DNA of 64,000 nt from Natronobacterium texcoconense. GTDB taxonomy: Archaea > Halobacteriota > Halobacteria > Halobacteriales > Natrialbaceae. Positions 16,649 through 25,019 of the stretch are shown here, one piece after another. The stretch lies in contig NZ_FNLC01000003.1 in the NCBI RefSeq assembly GCF_900104065.1, positions 62,001 to 126,000 on the forward strand, given 5' to 3'. Within the stretch, counting starts at the first letter, position 1. Each line of letters starts with the position of its first letter. A program made the translations under genes and the position numbers. The notes beneath the pieces are model-generated. The model saw only the letters and a program-made list of their open reading frames with translations, was not told the origin of the DNA and did no database searches.

Positions 16649-19600
16649 ATGGCGCAAGCGGGAAATTCAGAACTCGTCGACTCGTTCGAGCAGTTCTTCC
16701 GCAACTACTACGACAACGAGATCAAGCAGCTTGCGCAGCAGTACCCCAACGAACAGCGGTCGCTCCACGTCGACTGGCAGGACCTCTACCGGTTCGATCC
16801 CGACCTCGCGGACGACTTTCTGAACCAGCCCGAACAGCTCCAGCGGTACGCCGAAGAAGCCCTCCGGCTGTACGACCTCCCGATCGACGTCAGCCTCGGC
16901 CAGGCCCACGTCCGGGTCCGGAACCTCCCCGAAACCGAGTCGCCCGAGATTCGCGAGATCCGCGCCCGCGACATGAACGCCCTCATTCAGGTGCGAGGGA
17001 TCGTCCGGAAAGCCACCGACGTCCGCCCGAAGATCGAAGAAGCCGCCTTCGAGTGCCAGCTCTGTGGTACCCTCACTCGCGTACCACAATCGAGCGGCGA
17101 CTTCCAGGAACCCCACGAGTGCCAGGGCTGTGAACGACAGGGGCCGTTCCAGGTCAACTTCGACCAGTCCGAGTTCGTCGACTCCCAGAAACTCCGCATC
17201 CAGGAGAGTCCCGAAGGACTGCGCGGCGGCGAGACGCCCCAGTCGCTGGACGTCCACGTCGAGGACGACATCACCGGCGAAGTGACGCCCGGCGACCACG
17301 TCTCCGCCACCGGCGTCCTCCGGCTCGAGCAACAGGGCGACGGCCAGGACAAGTCTCCAGTCTTCGACTTCTACATGGAGGGGATGTCCGTCGAGATCGA
17401 GGAAGAGCAGTTCGAGGACATGAACATCACCGACGAGGACAAGAAAGAGATCTACGAGATCTCGAATCGGGACGACGTCTACGAGAAGATGATCGGCTCG
17501 ATCGCACCCTCGATCTACGGCTACGACCAGGAGAAACTCGCGATGATCCTCCAGTTGTTCTCGGGAGTCACGAAACAGTTACCCGACGGCTCGAGGATTC
17601 GTGGCGACCTGCATATGCTTCTGATCGGGGACCCGGGTACCGGTAAATCGCAGATGCTGGGCTACATCCAGAACATCGCCCCCCGCTCGGTCTATACTTC
17701 CGGTAAGGGTTCGTCCTCGGCTGGTCTCACGGCCGCCGCCGTCCGCGACGACTTCGGCGACGGCCAGCAGTGGACCCTCGAGGCCGGTGCGCTCGTGCTC
17801 GCCGACCAGGGGATCGCCGCGGTCGACGAGCTCGACAAGATGCGGTGTGTCACAGGAGACACCCTAGTCCATACCGGGAACGGAATCGAACCAATTCGCG
17901 AACTCGCGCACGAAGCGATGGCCGAGGGTTCGATCGAGGAACTCGAAAACGGGCGGACAATCCGAGACGTCAATATAGACGTCTGGACGATGACAGAAGA
18001 TGGGAACGTAGTCAAACGCGATGTTCTCGCGATTCACGAATACGATGCACCAGACGAACTCTGGAACGTCGAACTAGAGAGTGGCGAACAGCTAACGACT
18101 ACTGCAGACCATCCGTTCTTCGTTTTGGAGGATGGAAAACGCGAAGAACGTCACGCTCGGGAGCTTCACGAAGGCGACTGGGTGTACGTGCCCGAGAAGA
18201 TTCCAGCGGGGATCACGGACGGCGGAGTCAGCGTCCTTCCAGCCGCCAATACGGACTCGAAAACCGATCAGATAACCGCCGCTCACGGGGCGATTTTAGG
18301 CTATATCGCCGGTGACGGCAACATCTTCTACGATCGAGAAGCCGGGAGCTACGGATTCCGGTTCACGAACAAAGAGGCGGAACTCCTGAGCGACTTCGAA
18401 GAAGCTTGCGCGGAGGCGTTCGATACGCAAGCCGTTCGCCATCCAAGCGAGCAACGAAGTGACGGTGTCGAAACAGTCCGCGTCCACGGAAAACAGTACG
18501 TCGACGAACTTCTCGAATCAGGTGCGAATCTCGAGAGCTACGATGGAAAGCGGCTCCCCGAGAAGGTAACGAACGCATCCCGTGAGACGAAAGCAGCATT
18601 CGTTCGTGCGCTTGCAGATTCCGAGGGGACAGTCGATGAACGGGCTGTCAAAATTCACTCCTCGAGTTACGAACTGCTCCTCGGAACGAAGATGCTCCTG
18701 CTCGAGTTCGGGATCTCGAGCCAGATTCAGACACGTGATCGGGGCAGTAAACGTGACTTGTTCATACTCGCGATCACATCCGATCAGTCACTCGAAGCGT
18801 TCGAGCGACACATCGGGTTTACTCTCGATCGGAAACAGCGTGCGCTGGAACATGCCTGCGAACGAACGACAGGAACCCGAACCATCCTAGACGTACTGCC
18901 CGAGTGCGGTGAGTTGTTCGAACAGGCGCGTGGCGCACTTCGATTACATCAATCCGAATGTGGCCCCGAAAGTGACGCAACCTACTGTAACTTCGAAAAC
19001 GGGGATGCAAACGCGTCGCTCCGACTCTCAAAAACGATACTCGAGACGTTCGAAGAGAGAAAATCCACAGCCAGCGATCATTACGAAGAACTCGGGTCCG
19101 AGACGTCGTGGGAACGTCTCGCGGAACTTCGAGAGCAGTATCACGTCTCGCAGCGGGAGTTGGCTGCAGAAATGTCAATTTCACAGCAGCAGTTGTCCGC
19201 TCGATGGGGCACCGATACTGACCTTCGAGAGCGAGTTCGAGAGCGGCTTCGCAACCTACTCGCGACGCCCGCATCGGTCGATCTCGATCCGCTTCGAACG
19301 TTGATTAAGAGCGACGTAAAGTGGCGTCGTGTAACTGCGGTAGGGTCGGTAGCGTCACGAGAACACACCGATACCAGGGTGAAAGTTCTCGAACAGCAAC
19401 TGGCCGACGAGATCGGCGTATCCACTGTCGATTCGGTTCGTGAGTGTGCGCATTCCTTGCTCGAAATGACCGAGCCGGCCGAGACGTGGGAGGAACTTCG
19501 GGACCGACTCGAGAGCTACGGTATTTCGTTCCAACAAGTTGCCGCAGAGATGGACGTCGCAGGATCGACCGTGTCACGGTGGTTCTCGGGAGCCGTCGAC

Positions 19601-20677
19601 GTCGACAACTTCGATACCGTCCGATCCGTCTGTGAAGAGTTGTTCGAGGAAAAACGACGGCGGATCGCGGCACTCGTAGAAGAGATCAAACGACGGGAGC
19701 AGCCGCGAGTGTACGATCTCACCGTCGAAGGAACACACAACTTCATCGCTAATGGCATGGTCGTCCACAACTCCGAAGACCGCTCCGCCATGCACGAGGC
19801 CTTAGAGCAGCAGAAAATCTCCGTCTCCAAGGCAGGTATCAACGCCACCCTCAAGTCCCGCTGTTCGTTGCTCGGCGCGGCAAACCCCAAGTACGGTCGA
19901 TTCGACCAGTACGAACCCATCGGCGAGCAGATCGACCTCGAGCCGGCGCTCATCTCGCGGTTCGACCTGATCTTCACGGTCACCGACCAGCCCGACGAGG
20001 AGAAAGACCGCAATCTGGCGGAGCACATCCTCACTACCAATTACGCAGGCGAGTTGACTACACAGCGCGAGCAGATGACCAACCTCGACGTCAGTGAGGG
20101 GGAAATCGAGGAGATGACCGAGCAGGTCGACCCCGTGATCGACGCCGAACTCCTCCGAAAGTACATCGCCTTCGCGAAGCAGAACTGCCATCCGCGGATG
20201 ACCGAGGAAGCCCAGGAGACGATCCGGGATTTCTACGTCAACCTGCGATCCAGAGGAACGGACGAGGACGCTGCTGTCCCCGTCACCGCACGGAAACTCG
20301 AGGCGCTGGTTCGACTCGCGGAAGCGAGTGCCCGCGTGCGGCTCTCGGATACGGTCGAGCAGCGCGACGCCGAGCGATCCGTCGAGATCGTTCGTTCGTG
20401 TCTGCAGGATATCGGCGTCGACCCCGAGACGGGCGAGTTCGACGCGGACATCGTCGAGGCGGGCACCTCCAAATCACAGCGCGATCGGATCAAGAACATC
20501 AAACAGCTTATCAGCGACATCGAGGAGGAGTACGACGACGGGGCGCCGGTCGACATCGTTCTGGAACGAGCCGAAGAAATCGGCATGGACCAGACCAAAG
20601 CGGAACACGAGATCGACAAGCTCAAACAGAAAGGCGAGGTCTACGAGCCGAGTACGGACAACTTGCGGACGACGTAG
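16649..20677 (+). CDS. mcm: MCM replicative helicase, intein-containing precursor
   Basis: 1342-residue precursor; removing the intein (residues 400-1041) leaves a 700-residue MCM, the usual haloarchaeal size. It is the hexameric 3'-5' replicative helicase. The N-terminal domain (1-250) has a zinc finger with CQLC and CQGC pairs. The AAA+ domain has Walker A GDPGTGKSQM, then ADQGIAAVDELDKM (Walker B), which is where the intein interrupts. After the intein SEDRSAMHEALEQQ continues, followed by sensor 1 GAANPKYGRF and the arginine finger SRFDLIF. The C-terminus (about 1265-1342) is a winged helix. Activity must depend on protein splicing. Confidence 0.95.
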   Translation: MAQAGNSELVDSFEQFFRNYYDNEIKQLAQQYPNEQRSLHVDWQDLYRFDPDLADDFLNQPEQLQRYAEEALRLYDLPIDVSLGQAHVRVRNLPETESPEIREIRARDMNALIQVRGIVRKATDVRPKIEEAAFECQLCGTLTRVPQSSGDFQEPHECQGCERQGPFQVNFDQSEFVDSQKLRIQESPEGLRGGETPQSLDVHVEDDITGEVTPGDHVSATGVLRLEQQGDGQDKSPVFDFYMEGMSVEIEEEQFEDMNITDEDKKEIYEISNRDDVYEKMIGSIAPSIYGYDQEKLAMILQLFSGVTKQLPDGSRIRGDLHMLLIGDPGTGKSQMLGYIQNIAPRSVYTSGKGSSSAGLTAAAVRDDFGDGQQWTLEAGALVLADQGIAAVDELDKMRCVTGDTLVHTGNGIEPIRELAHEAMAEGSIEELENGRTIRDVNIDVWTMTEDGNVVKRDVLAIHEYDAPDELWNVELESGEQLTTTADHPFFVLEDGKREERHARELHEGDWVYVPEKIPAGITDGGVSVLPAANTDSKTDQITAAHGAILGYIAGDGNIFYDREAGSYGFRFTNKEAELLSDFEEACAEAFDTQAVRHPSEQRSDGVETVRVHGKQYVDELLESGANLESYDGKRLPEKVTNASRETKAAFVRALADSEGTVDERAVKIHSSSYELLLGTKMLLLEFGISSQIQTRDRGSKRDLFILAITSDQSLEAFERHIGFTLDRKQRALEHACERTTGTRTILDVLPECGELFEQARGALRLHQSECGPESDATYCNFENGDANASLRLSKTILETFEERKSTASDHYEELGSETSWERLAELREQYHVSQRELAAEMSISQQQLSARWGTDTDLRERVRERLRNLLATPASVDLDPLRTLIKSDVKWRRVTAVGSVASREHTDTRVKVLEQQLADEIGVSTVDSVRECAHSLLEMTEPAETWEELRDRLESYGISFQQVAAEMDVAGSTVSRWFSGAVDVDNFDTVRSVCEELFEEKRRRIAALVEEIKRREQPRVYDLTVEGTHNFIANGMVVHNSEDRSAMHEALEQQKISVSKAGINATLKSRCSLLGAANPKYGRFDQYEPIGEQIDLEPALISRFDLIFTVTDQPDEEKDRNLAEHILTTNYAGELTTQREQMTNLDVSEGEIEEMTEQVDPVIDAELLRKYIAFAKQNCHPRMTEEAQETIRDFYVNLRSRGTDEDAAVPVTARKLEALVRLAEASARVRLSDTVEQRDAERSVEIVRSCLQDIGVDPETGEFDADIVEAGTSKSQRDRIKNIKQLISDIEEEYDDGAPVDIVLERAEEIGMDQTKAEHEIDKLKQKGEVYEPSTDNLRTT
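17846..19771 (+). mobile_element. MCM intein with LAGLIDADG endonuclease and two HTH regions
   Basis: 642-residue in-frame intein, residues 400-1041 of the precursor. It begins at C400 (CVTGDTLVHTGNG, block A) and ends VEGTHNFIANGMVVHN (blocks F/G) followed by Ser, so the splicing residues Cys, His-Asn and Ser+1 are intact. Block B is TTTADHPFFVLEDG. LAGLIDADG-type motifs are LGYIAGDGN (550-558) and FVRALADSEGT (651-661). About 270 residues between the endonuclease and block F hold two helix-turn-helix-like stretches: SQRELAAEMSISQQQLSARW (within 827-854) and FQQVAAEMDVAGSTVSRW (within 954-980). Most LAGLIDADG inteins are shorter and lack these. Confidence 0.92.
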
Positions 20678-20774: not shown

Positions 20775-21508
20775 TCAGAGGTCCCTGAGATCCCTCACTG
20801 TCGATCGGATCGTCACTGGGGCGACGTCTGCTGTCTCGGCTGCAGCGGCCTGCGTGATCGAGGGCCACTCTTCGCGTTCGCCGGCGGCCTTGTAGAGACA
20901 GGCAGCGGCGACGCCGCTCGGGTTGCGACCGCCGATCAACCGCTGCTCGAGCAGCGCCGTCACGTGTTCGCGGGCGCGGCGTTCGACGTCGGTTCCGAGA
21001 TCGAGTTTCGAGGCGTACCGTGGGAGATACTGGGTTGGGTCGATCGGTCCCGTCGGTAGTCCGAGTTCCCGGTTGAGGGCCTTGTATGCGACCTGTAGTT
21101 CGTCGCAGTCGGCACGCGCGACGGCGGCGATTTCGTCTACCGTTCGGGCGATAGATCGAGTTCGACAGGTCGCGTAGATAGCTGCAGCGGCGAACCCCTC
21201 GAGTGATCGGCCCTGGAGCAGGTCGGCTGACTGGGCGGATTCGAACAGGGCACACGACTGTTCGCGAACGGAGTCGGGAAGTGAGAGATGGGAGTTGACG
21301 CGCCTGATTTCGGCGAATCCGTAGACCTGGTTGCGCTCGGCTTTCGAGGAGATCCTGGCCCGGTTGTGTTCTCGGCGCAGACGCGCGATCTGGCGGCGCT
21401 TGCGACCGGTGAGTCGGGAGTTGTAACTCGAGTCGGAGCCCTTCCCGTAGCCGATCTCCGTCGAAAGTCCGCGATCGTGTCGTGATCGCGTCAGTGGAGC
21501 ACCGGTCC
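20775..21508 (-). pseudogene. tfb: C-terminal fragment of TFB, separated by an inserted element
   Basis: Reading from the 32-bp repeat, this frame gives RTGAPLTRSRHDRGLSTEIG, which is the B-linker of a TFIIB homologue, then both cyclin folds (ISSKAERNQVYGFAEIRRVN, LEGFAAAAIYATCRTRSIAR, NPSGVAAACLYKAA) to a normal end at 20775. The zinc ribbon and start codon are missing. They lie 3.1 kb away at 24620-24844, with the same 32 bp at the break. The frame upstream of the repeat meets a TGA at about 21578-21583 without an ATG. TFB recruits RNA polymerase at TATA promoters; haloarchaea have several copies, so loss of one is tolerable. Confidence 0.88.
21477..21508. repeat. attachment site copy in tfb (attL/attR), 32 bp
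   Basis: Starts GTGTCGTGATCGCGTCAGTG and is identical over 32 bp to 24647-24678. On the minus strand it encodes RTGAPLTRSRH of TFB. It marks one junction of the integrated element; the period between copies is 3170 bp. Confidence 0.9.
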
Positions 21509-22549
21509 TTACTTTGAACGGGTTTTCCCTACGCGAATCCCTTACGTCGCGGACTCTCGGCCGAGATCGACTACGGAACCATCACATACCAGACCGGAAT
21601 ATCCCTTTGCAACGTTCATCGGATGAACGGGGATCGTGGCCGTCTGGGGTTCGGTCGTCACAACAAACCCTCAGCAAATAATTCTAGGGGACTTTCGAGG
21701 CGACAACTCTGATCATATCCTGTTGTAGCCCCCAGAAAACGCTTAAATGGACCTGACCCTTATCTAAGGCTAACCGATTCAAGGAATGTACCCTGGGAGG
21801 GTACCAGATGTTCTCAACTGGTTATACTCTCCCAGTGACCTTGAATCTTGCCTGAACCCCTAGAAGGAACCTGAAATAACGGTTGCTGTCAAAGGCACTT
21901 GAGTAAGGGAGAATCCGTGAGGGACTCTCTGAAACGCATACAGTTGTGGTCTGGGGGATTAGGGGGTTAAGCCCAACTCGAGTAATACCGAGCCAGAGAT
22001 CTAGTCGCAGCTCTACGATAGCAGTAAGGGCCGTGATTCTTGGTCCGACCGAAGGGGACCGCACCGATACCCACAGTAAGGAAGGTCCCCGGTGGGAGGA
22101 GGACCGAAGAGAAGTCGACCTTAGGGAGACGAACCGGAGCGTTTCGTTAGTATAGATATAGTATGTCTACTACTGTCCCGTCCCTAACTGGGGATCGGTA
22201 GCTGTCCTTTAGTGAAACAGTCCCTACTATCTTTTCGGCAAGCCAGTTACCGCAAAGGATTCGGTGTGATCCCCAGTCCTATTGTGGGAATCGGTGCGGT
22301 TGTCGGTAGTATTCTTAGCGGTATTGTGGCTATTCTCGCAAACCTGCCTACCAATTGGAGTGTCGCTGCTGGCCTTTCCCCAGTAGTATGTATCTAGTTA
22401 CGTTACCCCCTATTGTTGGTTTGTAACCTTCGAGTGGTGCTAGGTCGAAGTGCCGTCAGACCCCCGTACTGTCGCTTTTATTTCTCGATACCGTACCTGT
22501 TGGTATGTGTTCCCGGAAACTAACGTCAAGTAATCGTGGTCAGGTGAAC
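21509..22549. other. structured non-coding portion of the tfb element
   Basis: 1041 bp without a strong gene. It holds GTACCC-tggga-GGGTAC (21788-21804), overlapped by an alternative pairing CTGGGAG/CTCCCAG (21793-21799 with 21829-21835), and an ACTGGGGATC/GATCCCCAGT pair (about 22188-22197 and 22268-22277). A TATA-like CTTAAATG lies near 21741. It also has a 31-bp TFB-like stretch in reverse orientation (21548-21578). Reasonable roles are replication origin, recombinase arm sites or a structured RNA; none is shown. Confidence 0.45.
22266..22397 (+). CDS. possible very small membrane protein of the element
   Basis: A 43-residue frame from a GTG at 22266 with one hydrophobic helix (VGIGAVVGSILSGIVAILA). 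An in-frame ATG at 22212 would add 18 polar residues. There is no clear ribosome-binding site, so it may be spurious. It is listed because small single-helix proteins are usual in archaeal viral and plasmid elements. Confidence 0.3.
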   Translation: MIPSPIVGIGAVVGSILSGIVAILANLPTNWSVAAGLSPVVCI

Positions 22550-22759
22550 ATGGCGGATCATGCGGTTGAGGTAATCGTCTCGGTCTTGGTGGCCGCACTG
22601 CTTGCGGCGTACCTAATCCCGATCCCGATTGAGCACCTGTCCGACGTCGACACTTCGGCCTGGACGTCCGGCGCGGCAGAGTTGTGGGGGCTGCTGTCGG
22701 TGATGATCGTCTTGGCCATGTTCCTGTTTTTCGTTCAGGTGGCCATCCGTTCGAGGTAA
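22550..22759 (+). CDS. two-helix small membrane protein of the element
   Basis: 69-residue protein starting MADHAVEVIVSVLVAALLAA. It has two predicted helices (about residues 6-24 and 43-63) joined by a polar loop with DVDTSAWTSGAAELWGLL, ending in a basic tail. AGGTGAAC directly before the ATG at 22550 looks like a ribosome-binding site and favours this over an in-frame start at 22505. Two hydrophobic segments in about 70-90 residues are seen in small capsid-like or membrane proteins of archaeal spindle-shaped and pleomorphic viruses, but I see no specific match. Confidence 0.65.
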   Translation: MADHAVEVIVSVLVAALLAAYLIPIPIEHLSDVDTSAWTSGAAELWGLLSVMIVLAMFLFFVQVAIRSR

Positions 22760-22801
22760 TCTCCCTTTCTTCCCTGCGATGATACGGAATTCGGTGTGAT
22801 C

Positions 22802-22830
22802 GGTTCTGACTTTAGGCTAAAGCCGGAACC
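22802..22830. terminator. hairpin between convergent element genes
   Basis: GGTTCTGACTTTAG followed directly by GCTAAAGCCGGAACC, pairing at 12 of 14 positions, between the ends of the 69-residue and 88-residue genes. Likely transcript end signal for both directions. Confidence 0.45.
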
Positions 22831-22852
22831 ACCCAATCAGGTTTTGGTGCGA

Positions 22853-23119
22853 CTATATATCTATAGATTGTCTTTCACATTCTTGGAGTATTTCTTCTTC
22901 ATCAAATTTCTCGATCACTTCCCCTAAGGCGTCACCTCCGTGTTCAAGTCCAGGCTGTCTTTCTATTTTTTCATGTTCGATGAGAACTATCCTACTTTCA
23001 TCTTCTTCGTAAGATATCCACCCCGAATCTGAGGGACCACTCGTCATTAGTATATCACTATATTCGATGGATAATTTTGCTATTTTGAGATCGTCTTCGG
23101 TCAATTCGGACACATCCAT
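22853..23119 (-). CDS. small acidic hypothetical protein of the element
   Basis: 88-residue protein starting MDVSELTEDDLKIAKLSIEY, soluble, acidic, and of markedly lower GC than host genes. The last third (EVIEKFDEEEILQECERQ) is a likely helix. No family recognised and no DNA-binding motif seen. Same strand as the downstream-facing membrane protein and recombinase genes of the element. Confidence 0.6.
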   Translation of the reverse strand: MDVSELTEDDLKIAKLSIEYSDILMTSGPSDSGWISYEEDESRIVLIEHEKIERQPGLEHGGDALGEVIEKFDEEEILQECERQSIDI

Positions 23120-23233
23120 ATGTCACCGATTGTCAAAGTGCAATATCAACCCCCTACCTGCAATTGCTATAGCCAGATCTGCCAAATCAGTAATATGGTT
23201 TCAAGAAAAATAGCCGGATGGCTACGCTATCCC

Positions 23234-23422
23234 CTACAGCAGTCTCCCGAACATCCCAACGAACATCGTAACGAGGCCTATGATAAGTGCCATTACGATA
23301 ATTTCGGGAAGGATGCTGATGTAGCCATCGACGCTAAAACCGAGTAACGCTGCAATCGGTACGAGGCCCACTGCTCCGGCCACAATTGCAGCGAATATGT
23401 CATATGATTTCTTTCCTGTCAT
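23234..23422 (-). CDS. small membrane protein of the element
   Basis: 62 residues from MTGKKSYDIFAAIVAGAVG, with two hydrophobic helices (about 8-27 and 36-58). In-frame starts at 23452 (ATG) and 23482 (GTG) would add 10 or 20 polar residues. I chose 23422 because an A/T-rich TATA-like TTAAAAATT lies near 23457-23465 inside the longer version and AGGGGG precedes the ATG. Unknown function; the size and topology are like membrane proteins of small archaeal viruses or plasmids. Confidence 0.55.
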   Translation of the reverse strand: MTGKKSYDIFAAIVAGAVGLVPIAALLGFSVDGYISILPEIIVMALIIGLVTMFVGMFGRLL

Positions 23423-23566
23423 GCTTTTTGTCGCCCCCTGCGGTTCCCCCATACCAATTTTTAACTTCAATTCATCAACCACCGCAAAAGGCGGTCAATC
23501 CTATCACAAGCAGTGATATAATACTTACCCTACCAATATGAAAGTGAAACTAGTTACTAAGTGGGA

Positions 23567-24586
23567 TCAGATATTTTCTAAGTAACCACGTCGCTTCTCC
23601 ATCTTTTCACATTCAGTCATTTGGTTATAATGTTTGTCGATCACGTCGGGGCTGACGTCACAACGATCAGAGACAACTGTCTCGGGGACGTCGTTACGAC
23701 AGAGATAGGTAATGGCCCCACGACGGACGTCATGGGGACTGACGACAGACGGACACTGTGCCGCATAGTCGTTGTCTGTGGCCGCTTTACACTCAGACGG
23801 ATGTTCACCATGGGGGCAGTCCTTCGATACCTCACATGGCCGTGTATACCGATATACAGTCCGTCGAACAGTAATCACAGACGGTCGACCGAATTGAGTA
23901 GTCACCAGCGGCCTACGACCATAGTCGTCTGTCACGTCGTCTCTGTGATGGCTCAAATAGTCGCCTATGACCGTTGCAGTCGATTCTTTGAGTGAGATGT
24001 GCCGTTCTCCTCCCGTTCCGTTCTTTAGCGGTGTATCGGTTTCTGGCCGGTGTGAGAGAGAAATGTATGGGACGTCCGTCTCTGTTGGCTCGAGGATAAC
24101 ATCACTGACGTCAATAGATCGTAAGGCTCCCAGACGGATACCAGTCGACCATAGCAGTAGGATAACGACGTGATGCCGCTGTGCATAGTTGAATCGCTCG
24201 AGATAGTCGAGTATGTCGCTGGCCCGTTCTGACGAGAGTATACGGTCTCTGCTACTGTCCGCGTTCGGCTGTAATGCTCGCAGTCTGTCGGCCAGTGAAT
24301 CGTCACAACAGTCGATAGCAGCTGCCCACTCGAGTAGATTCACGACGTCATTGAGACGATGCAGTACGGTCTTGTCGGCTATGCCTTGCTCAACGTTGTG
24401 TAGCTTGTATTGGTGTAGATGCATCGGCTGGACGTCGTCTAACGTCTCTATATCGTCTCTGTCGTCACACCAGTCGACGAACATCCCAATACGGGAGCGA
24501 ATGCTTTTCACTGTCGATGCCGCTAATTCCGATTGTCGTTCACTGAGGTACATACTCAGTGCATCCGACGGGGTTAAGTCTGTCAT
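23567..24586 (-). CDS. tyrosine recombinase/integrase
   Basis: 339-residue phage-type integrase. A SAM-like core-binding domain (about 1-95, with LTPSDALSMYLSERQSELAA) precedes the catalytic domain. Catalytic residues are visible: Arg in STGIRLGALRSID, the HxxR box in SPHDVRRGAITYL, and the nucleophile Tyr in VIDKHYNQMTECEKM. A Cys/His-rich insert CPHGEHPSEC is seen in many haloarchaeal integrases. It lies 60 bp inside the right-hand attachment repeat and is not split by integration, unlike SSV-type integrases. It should catalyse integration and excision at the 32-bp site in tfb. Confidence 0.93.
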   Translation of the reverse strand: MTDLTPSDALSMYLSERQSELAASTVKSIRSRIGMFVDWCDDRDDIETLDDVQPMHLHQYKLHNVEQGIADKTVLHRLNDVVNLLEWAAAIDCCDDSLADRLRALQPNADSSRDRILSSERASDILDYLERFNYAQRHHVVILLLWSTGIRLGALRSIDVSDVILEPTETDVPYISLSHRPETDTPLKNGTGGERHISLKESTATVIGDYLSHHRDDVTDDYGRRPLVTTQFGRPSVITVRRTVYRYTRPCEVSKDCPHGEHPSECKAATDNDYAAQCPSVVSPHDVRRGAITYLCRNDVPETVVSDRCDVSPDVIDKHYNQMTECEKMEKRRGYLENI

Positions 24587-24619
24587 CGGTCACACACACT
24601 TTCGCTAAACCCCGTCCGA

Positions 24620-24844
24620 CTACGATACCCGTATAGCCGATAGAGAGTGTCGTGATCGCGTCAGTGGAGCACCGGTCCGTCGGCGGTCGGTTTCCTCATC
24701 CTCGAACGAGCGCCACTCGGGGCCGTGATCGATTGCATCCTCCCCAAAGACGAGTCCACATTCCTCGCAGATCGTTTCGGTATCGACTTGCCGCAACGTG
24801 CCGTTACATTCGGGACAGCTGTGGTTCGTATCGGTTCCCGCCAT
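24620..24844 (-). pseudogene. tfb: N-terminal fragment of TFB ending inside the element
   Basis: Starts MAGTDTNHSCPECNGTL at 24844, with the TFIIB zinc ribbon (CPEC and CEEC pairs) and the B-reader PEWRSFEDEE. It reaches RTGAPLTRSRH at the attachment repeat and then runs nine codons into the element (SLSAIRVS, stop at 24620). TTTAAATAC on the minus strand (24885-24893) is its TATA box. A 74-residue zinc-ribbon/B-finger peptide could therefore still be made. The cyclin folds needed for TBP-DNA binding are 3.1 kb away at 20775-21508. Confidence 0.88.
24647..24678. repeat. attachment site copy in tfb, 32 bp
   Basis: Identical to 21477-21508. On the minus strand it encodes the same TFB residues, here joined to the zinc-ribbon half. 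It marks the second junction of the integrated element, beside the recombinase gene. Confidence 0.9.
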
Positions 24845-25019
24845 CGGTAATCGTAATTCCGTATGCAAGTTTGATCTCGTCAATGTATTTAAACTAATGG
24901 AATTGTAGTAGAATTAACAGCCGGCGAGCGACTGGTTACAGACGTCCACACGATCCAACACTCAGCGGGTCGTTTTATCCGGTTACTCGTGATATGCGCG
25001 GATGGTATTCAGACGGCAG

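Follow-up and report, generated by a model that had tools for sequence, protein, structure and literature searches.

What is the DNA that divides a gene for the general transcription factor TFB in Natronobacterium texcoconense, and could the gene be made whole again? The window analysed here is a stretch of 64,000 nucleotides (assembly GCF_900104065.1, contig NZ_FNLC01000003.1, positions 62,001 to 126,000), in which a tfb gene, read on the minus strand, lies in two pieces. A preliminary description of the window had proposed that an integrative element splits this gene and could act as a reversible switch. Our analysis indicated that the insert is probably a site-specifically integrated mini-element, derived from a spindle-shaped virus or a satellite of one, in a dispensable tfb paralogue.

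The 5' half of the gene (24620..24844, minus strand), which carries the zinc ribbon and the start of the B-reader, was named by Pfam (PF08271, E 4e-13) and aligned to residues 1-66 of the intact orthologues. The 3' half (20775..21508, minus strand), comprising the B-linker and two cyclin repeats (TFIIB repeats), was likewise named (PF00382, E 2e-31). Read from 24844, the zinc-ribbon half enters one copy of a direct repeat, and the cyclin-repeat half begins in the other. The two copies, detected by repeat search, are perfect over 32 bp (GTGTCGTGATCGCGTCAGTGGAGCACCGGTCC, minus strand) and stand 3170 bp apart, at 24647-24678 on the host side of the 5'-half junction and at 21477-21508 at the 3'-half junction, where the copy would be the one brought by the element. 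The splitting of tfb, the identical repeats at both breaks and a tyrosine recombinase just inside one of them had all been put forward in the preliminary description, and all were borne out.

When one repeat and the insert were removed in silico, a single TFB frame of 299 aa resulted, confirming that joining the repeats restores the frame. The joined protein has the zinc ribbon (PF08271) and two PF00382 stretches in one chain, which is the architecture of a TFB, and its alignment with 31 intact orthologous loci is collinear over the whole length or almost so. Identity to these loci is 72-88%, with 88% for the congener G003. An uninterrupted tfb at the insertion site in related genomes, on which the preliminary description had made its reading depend, is present at these loci. 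By family search, an orthologue or close paralogue of this tfb was found in 121 of 125 genomes, mostly as a full-length frame. Neither half contains a stop codon or frameshift, and the ratio of nonsynonymous to synonymous substitution rates (dN/dS) of the halves against congeners was 0.07-0.14, similar to that of intact pairs.

As read, the insertion is predicted to inactivate the paralogue. The 5' half extends 7-8 codons into the element and stops at 24620, and the 3' half (244 codons) has no in-frame ATG, GTG or TTG from its upstream stop to about codon 181. With no start codon for the 3' half, and nothing beyond a zinc-ribbon stub to be expected from the 5' half, the paralogue would be off in the integrated state.

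The element measures 3170 bp, with a G+C content of 0.50 versus 0.61 in the flanks. Its tyrosine recombinase (23567..24586, minus strand, 339 aa, PF00589) begins 60 bp inside the repeat and is of the IntSNJ2 type: it aligned over 99% coverage with the integrases of HHPV4 (43.5% identity) and SNJ2 (40%), and grouped with haloarchaeal virus integrases. The catalytic set R150, K187, H284-x-x-R287 and Y319 was invariant in the integrase alignment, and the first arginine and the HxxR motif aligned to XerD in a partial mapping. An 84-aa protein with two hydrophobic helices is encoded on the plus strand (22505..22759). It matched the His1-type spindle-virus capsid family (PF25665, E 2e-20) with 72.9 bits against a cut-off of 27, which places it among the His1-type major capsid proteins (MCPs), and it shares 52% identity with the MCP annotated in Halorubrum spindle-shaped virus BLv25.

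The presumed crossover site (21470..21490) consists of perfect 7-bp inverted arms, CGCGATC and GATCGCG, around a 7-bp spacer, GTGTCGT, and the 32-bp repeat starts exactly at the spacer edge. This site lies in the tfb codons for R-S-R-H-D-R, between the zinc ribbon and the core. A search of other haloarchaea for tfb genes with the same insertion site, which the preliminary description had suggested, was productive. In G136, which belongs to another genus in the same family, a 7936-bp element bounded by 35-bp repeats interrupts the orthologous tfb (L084/L085, 11058 onward); its repeat and that of the window share the base at which they end, at the edge of the 7-bp spacer. The G136 integrase is the closest to that of the window (52%), the two being sisters in the tree with support of 100/97, and it also lies close behind the tfb 5' half. 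In G135 (L078, 5391-9128), a 2.8-kb element splits the same tfb about 15 bp upstream, with a repeat of only about 7 bp; its integrase, oppositely oriented, is less closely related (45%). A degenerate junction pattern matched only the window and G136 among 392 haloarchaeal genomes. Judged from these loci, the tfb site is a recurrent attachment site (attB), and its recurrence supports the view that the mini-element may be recently or still mobile.

The 3' half has gained an in-frame start in G135 (GTG) and in G136 (ATG) and has none in the window; in those two genomes it could make a TFB without a zinc ribbon. Other TFB paralogues were considered as hosts of a corresponding insertion, and this was rejected, the one pattern match being to an uninterrupted gene that reads H-N in place of H-D. 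The paralogue split in the window is broken in other ways elsewhere, by frame changes in G124 (L080, 4072-4967) and by a 1.5-kb insert near codon 120 together with stops in G055 (L083, 2965-5326), and it is therefore probably dispensable at least at times.

The attachment (att) repeats are matched to their own hosts. The window repeat agreed with its own tfb at 32 of 32 positions and with other species at 29 positions at best; for the G136 repeat the figures are 35 of 35 and at best 33. Identity over the 7-bp spacer is explained by strand exchange, which does not cover the further 25 identical bases. This suggested that the att copies are fitted to the host allele, and from that match we infer repeated cycling within a species.

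The capsid family cut-off was exceeded in only three of the 392 haloarchaeal genomes. A 2623-bp element lies in tRNA-Tyr in G212 (L124, 9121-11772) and a 3141-bp element in tRNA-Arg in G349 (L125, 9223-12394); both have intact att repeats, and a His1-type capsid protein and an IntSNJ2-type integrase are their sole recognisable genes. Together with the window element they represent three families, different targets and a size range of 2.6-3.2 kb. No further capsid carriers were found in the families of G212 and G349 (170 and 146 genomes) or in the plasmid collection, and no larger provirus with a His1-type capsid in about 500 or more distinct genomes. Scans of viral contigs for the capsid, for the integrases and for the att pattern yielded no relatives, in a weak test whose peptide patterns may have been too strict, and scans of genome contigs gave no haloarchaeal match. 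The recurring minimal content appears to fit a minimal element better than random decay, in a set of only three cases with low coding density.

Beside the att site, just inside the element end, an inverted-repeat search revealed an inverted copy of the tfb codons across the crossover (RGLSTEIGYG) at 21547..21576, matching its tfb source at 21445..21474 in 26 of 30 positions. The copied sequence is the part of the target outside the repeat, and the copy stands at the element end adjoining the non-repeated part of the target. Inverted copies were also present in G212 (29 bp, 97%) and G349 (49 bp, 80%), where they correspond to the tRNA 5' half, and a clear copy was seen in G136; the spacing between the arms was 72, 77, 71 and 39 nt in the window, G212, G349 and G136, respectively. 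The match scores were 22-29, compared with 12-13 for the best of 500 shuffles each and 6-10 in the direct orientation. Eight other elements with integrases of the same family and att on the same side of the integrase gene (int), whose boundaries are not all proven, reached 6-9 at the best candidate repeat; one chance repeat (L174) scored 14, and the tfb element of G135 scored 8. A general occurrence of the inverted copy in this integrase family was rejected, as it is absent from those eight elements and from the G135 element. The four positives are spread over two integrase clades in the tree, so that inheritance along with a single integrase does not by itself account for the trait.

Once the element is integrated, the two arms flank the att copy as a long inverted repeat, with fold z scores of -3.2 to -6.8, a strength that follows from the inverted arms by construction. 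The inverted-copy region alone was considered as a conserved structured RNA and rejected, since only the G212 copy was unusually stable. The inverted arm may serve as an accessory in recognition, may lock the integrated site, or may be left over from target capture. As a separate observation, the inverted tRNA-Tyr piece of G212 (L124, 9155-9245) is enclosed by an 8-bp outer stem (GAATACGC/GCGTATTC) and gives a tRNA-like three-way fold (z about -5).

The course of events at this locus may be pictured as follows. The integrase would recombine the 7-bp crossover site in tfb, so that the zinc ribbon and the core come to lie in separate pieces of the gene. Its own gene then lies on the same strand as the tfb 5' half, 33 bp past the stop of the stub; being directly downstream of that half, it is therefore probably transcribed from the tfb promoter, whose presumed TATA-like box is TTTAAATA (24886..24893, minus strand), by read-through of the 5' half. 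Excision between the identical repeats is plausible, and would give back the 299-codon tfb exactly, with the element leaving as a 3170-bp circle.

The remaining reading frames of the element were less informative. An 82-aa two-helix membrane protein (23234..23482, minus strand; weak homologue in G155) and an 88-aa acidic protein (22853..23119, minus strand; homologues in G105, 60%, and G121, 44%) belong to no named family, their homologues being scattered over these three other genomes of the family. A possible 61-aa membrane protein (22212..22397, plus strand) is a weakly supported gene, an open reading frame (ORF) with no significant family match. In G155 the homologue of the 82-aa protein occurs three times (L186, L187, L188), in long near-identical stretches of the one genome. 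No known RNA was detected in 21400-24900 with Rfam. The gene-poor end of the element contains a strong imperfect hairpin at about 21775-21847 (the 110 nt around it fold at about -40 kcal/mol), which may be an origin or packaging signal, or nothing. Outside the element, the neighbouring MCM helicase gene (16649-20677, 1342 aa) seems to carry an intein (CVTGDTLVHT ... HNFIANGMVVHN).

Several results weigh against a virus-derived or satellite mini-element. The capsid call comes from sequence profiles of a short membrane protein, and no solved structure matched it. Coding density is about 62% in the window element and 45-51% in its two relatives, which also fits decay. Family profile searches found no replication gene among the ORFs of the element, and no helper virus was found in the four host genomes with a single BLv25 protein as the probe and no positive control. 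The assembly holds one copy of the element, with no excised circle or empty site seen, and a recent insertion would give the low dN/dS of the tfb halves just as well. The low coding density, the missing replication gene and the several unassignable ORFs would all suit a decayed remnant, that is, a full-size spindle provirus in tfb that lost most of its genes and left tfb as a pseudogene. We nevertheless consider decay unlikely, because the integrase, the capsid gene and both att repeats are intact, the tfb halves are free of decay, the same minimal content recurs in three families at different targets, and no larger provirus with this capsid came up in about 500 or more distinct genomes. A transposon that duplicated 32 bp of its target would also leave a repeat identical to the host allele. 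The enzyme is, however, a tyrosine recombinase, the relatives have the 3' halves of tRNA genes as their targets, a hallmark of att integration, and two independent tfb events share one crossover edge, so that the chance of such a transposition is very small. Least credible of all is an assembly artefact or chimera, for which we found no positive point: in three separate genomes, different DNA interrupts tfb at this spot or beside it, and the element lies inside a 494-kb contig.

Under the reversible-switch reading, which the preliminary description had raised, controlled excision would turn the TFB paralogue on and shift global transcription, like the comK prophage of Listeria. The frame is exactly restorable, the att copy is matched to the host allele, neither tfb half has decayed, the integrase lies behind the tfb promoter in the window and in G136, and the same site is used repeatedly, all of which agree with a switch. 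Yet the target is only one of nine TFBs in the genome, leaving eight others, its loss is tolerated where frameshifts (G124) or an insertion with stops (G055) break it, and such insertions were present in only three of about 120 family genomes. A switch altering global transcription is unsupported as stated and seems to us distinctly improbable; the site-specific element, the exact restoration and the recurrent attB are what stands of the earlier reading.

The mini-element can be compared with known systems on both its virus-like genes. It shares the integrase family and direct-repeat att sites with the IntSNJ2-type proviruses of haloarchaea (SNJ2, HHPV4, Halfgib1, Harhisp1; pleolipoviruses), and its relatives share tRNA targets with them. 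However, those proviruses are 12-19 kb long, whereas the capsid elements are about 3 kb and have a spindle-type capsid. Harhisp1, Halfgib1 and Humcor2 have an annotated attP of 13-15 bp beside the int 3' end, in contrast to the elements studied here, in which att precedes the int start by 60-140 bp and the repeat is 29-35 bp. Recombination accessory proteins are encoded in front of int in SNJ2, and no accessory gene was recognised here. The capsid family PF25665 is shared with the spindle-shaped haloviruses (His1, Halspiviridae; BLv25, 13 kb). BLv25 has no match to the other proteins of the element, is about four times its size and has no annotated integrase, whereas the window element is integrated and encodes one. 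Beyond the capsid, what marks the Halspiviridae (further viral genes, a replication gene, a genome of 13-15 kb) was not found in this 3170-bp element, which has no other BLv25 match. The pSSVx and pSSVi plasmids are satellites of Sulfolobus spindle viruses; they are small, and some can integrate. To our knowledge they bring no capsid gene, and they are larger than the window element. A partial literature search found nothing on mini-elements with capsid plus integrase or on BLv25.

For the target, the nearest parallel is the Listeria prophage phi10403S in comK, whose excision restores a regulator gene with a known phenotype (PMC6872733). Here too a transcription-factor gene is split by an element and precise excision would restore its frame, although recombinase, size and domain of life differ, and the present case is read from sequence alone. 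Archaeal elements are known in protein genes, namely HMG-CoA reductase (BJ1), a cation efflux gene (Msmi-Pro1) and an AsnC regulator (NitGar-E6), and the review of archaeal tyrosine recombinases that lists them does not mention TFB as a target (PMC8371274). Those cases resemble ours in having attB within the coding sequence, and the tfb case differs in that the same codons are targeted in three species. A small recombinase-bearing element also disrupts a tRNA gene in Caldiarchaeum (PMC3293823).

A broader proposal is that the capsid elements form an undescribed class of archaeal elements of about 3 kb, with capsid plus integrase and an inverted target copy beside att that acts in target recognition or holds the integrated state, one branch having specialised on tfb so that the paralogue is switchable. 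We put this forward tentatively, as a doubtful possibility. Of the findings, the greater novelty lies in the mini-element class and the inverted target copy. The inverted copy is unexplained and testable, and it occurs in an integrase family found in most of the haloarchaeal genomes examined. Elements consisting almost only of a capsid gene and an integrase would rank among the smallest virus-derived elements of archaea, and their means of replication and spread become a question. General transcription factor genes lie outside the archaeal targets named in the review (PMC8371274), and here a tfb gene is repeatedly targeted at the same codons. The element and its target together would allow a direct test of the reversible loss of a global regulator.

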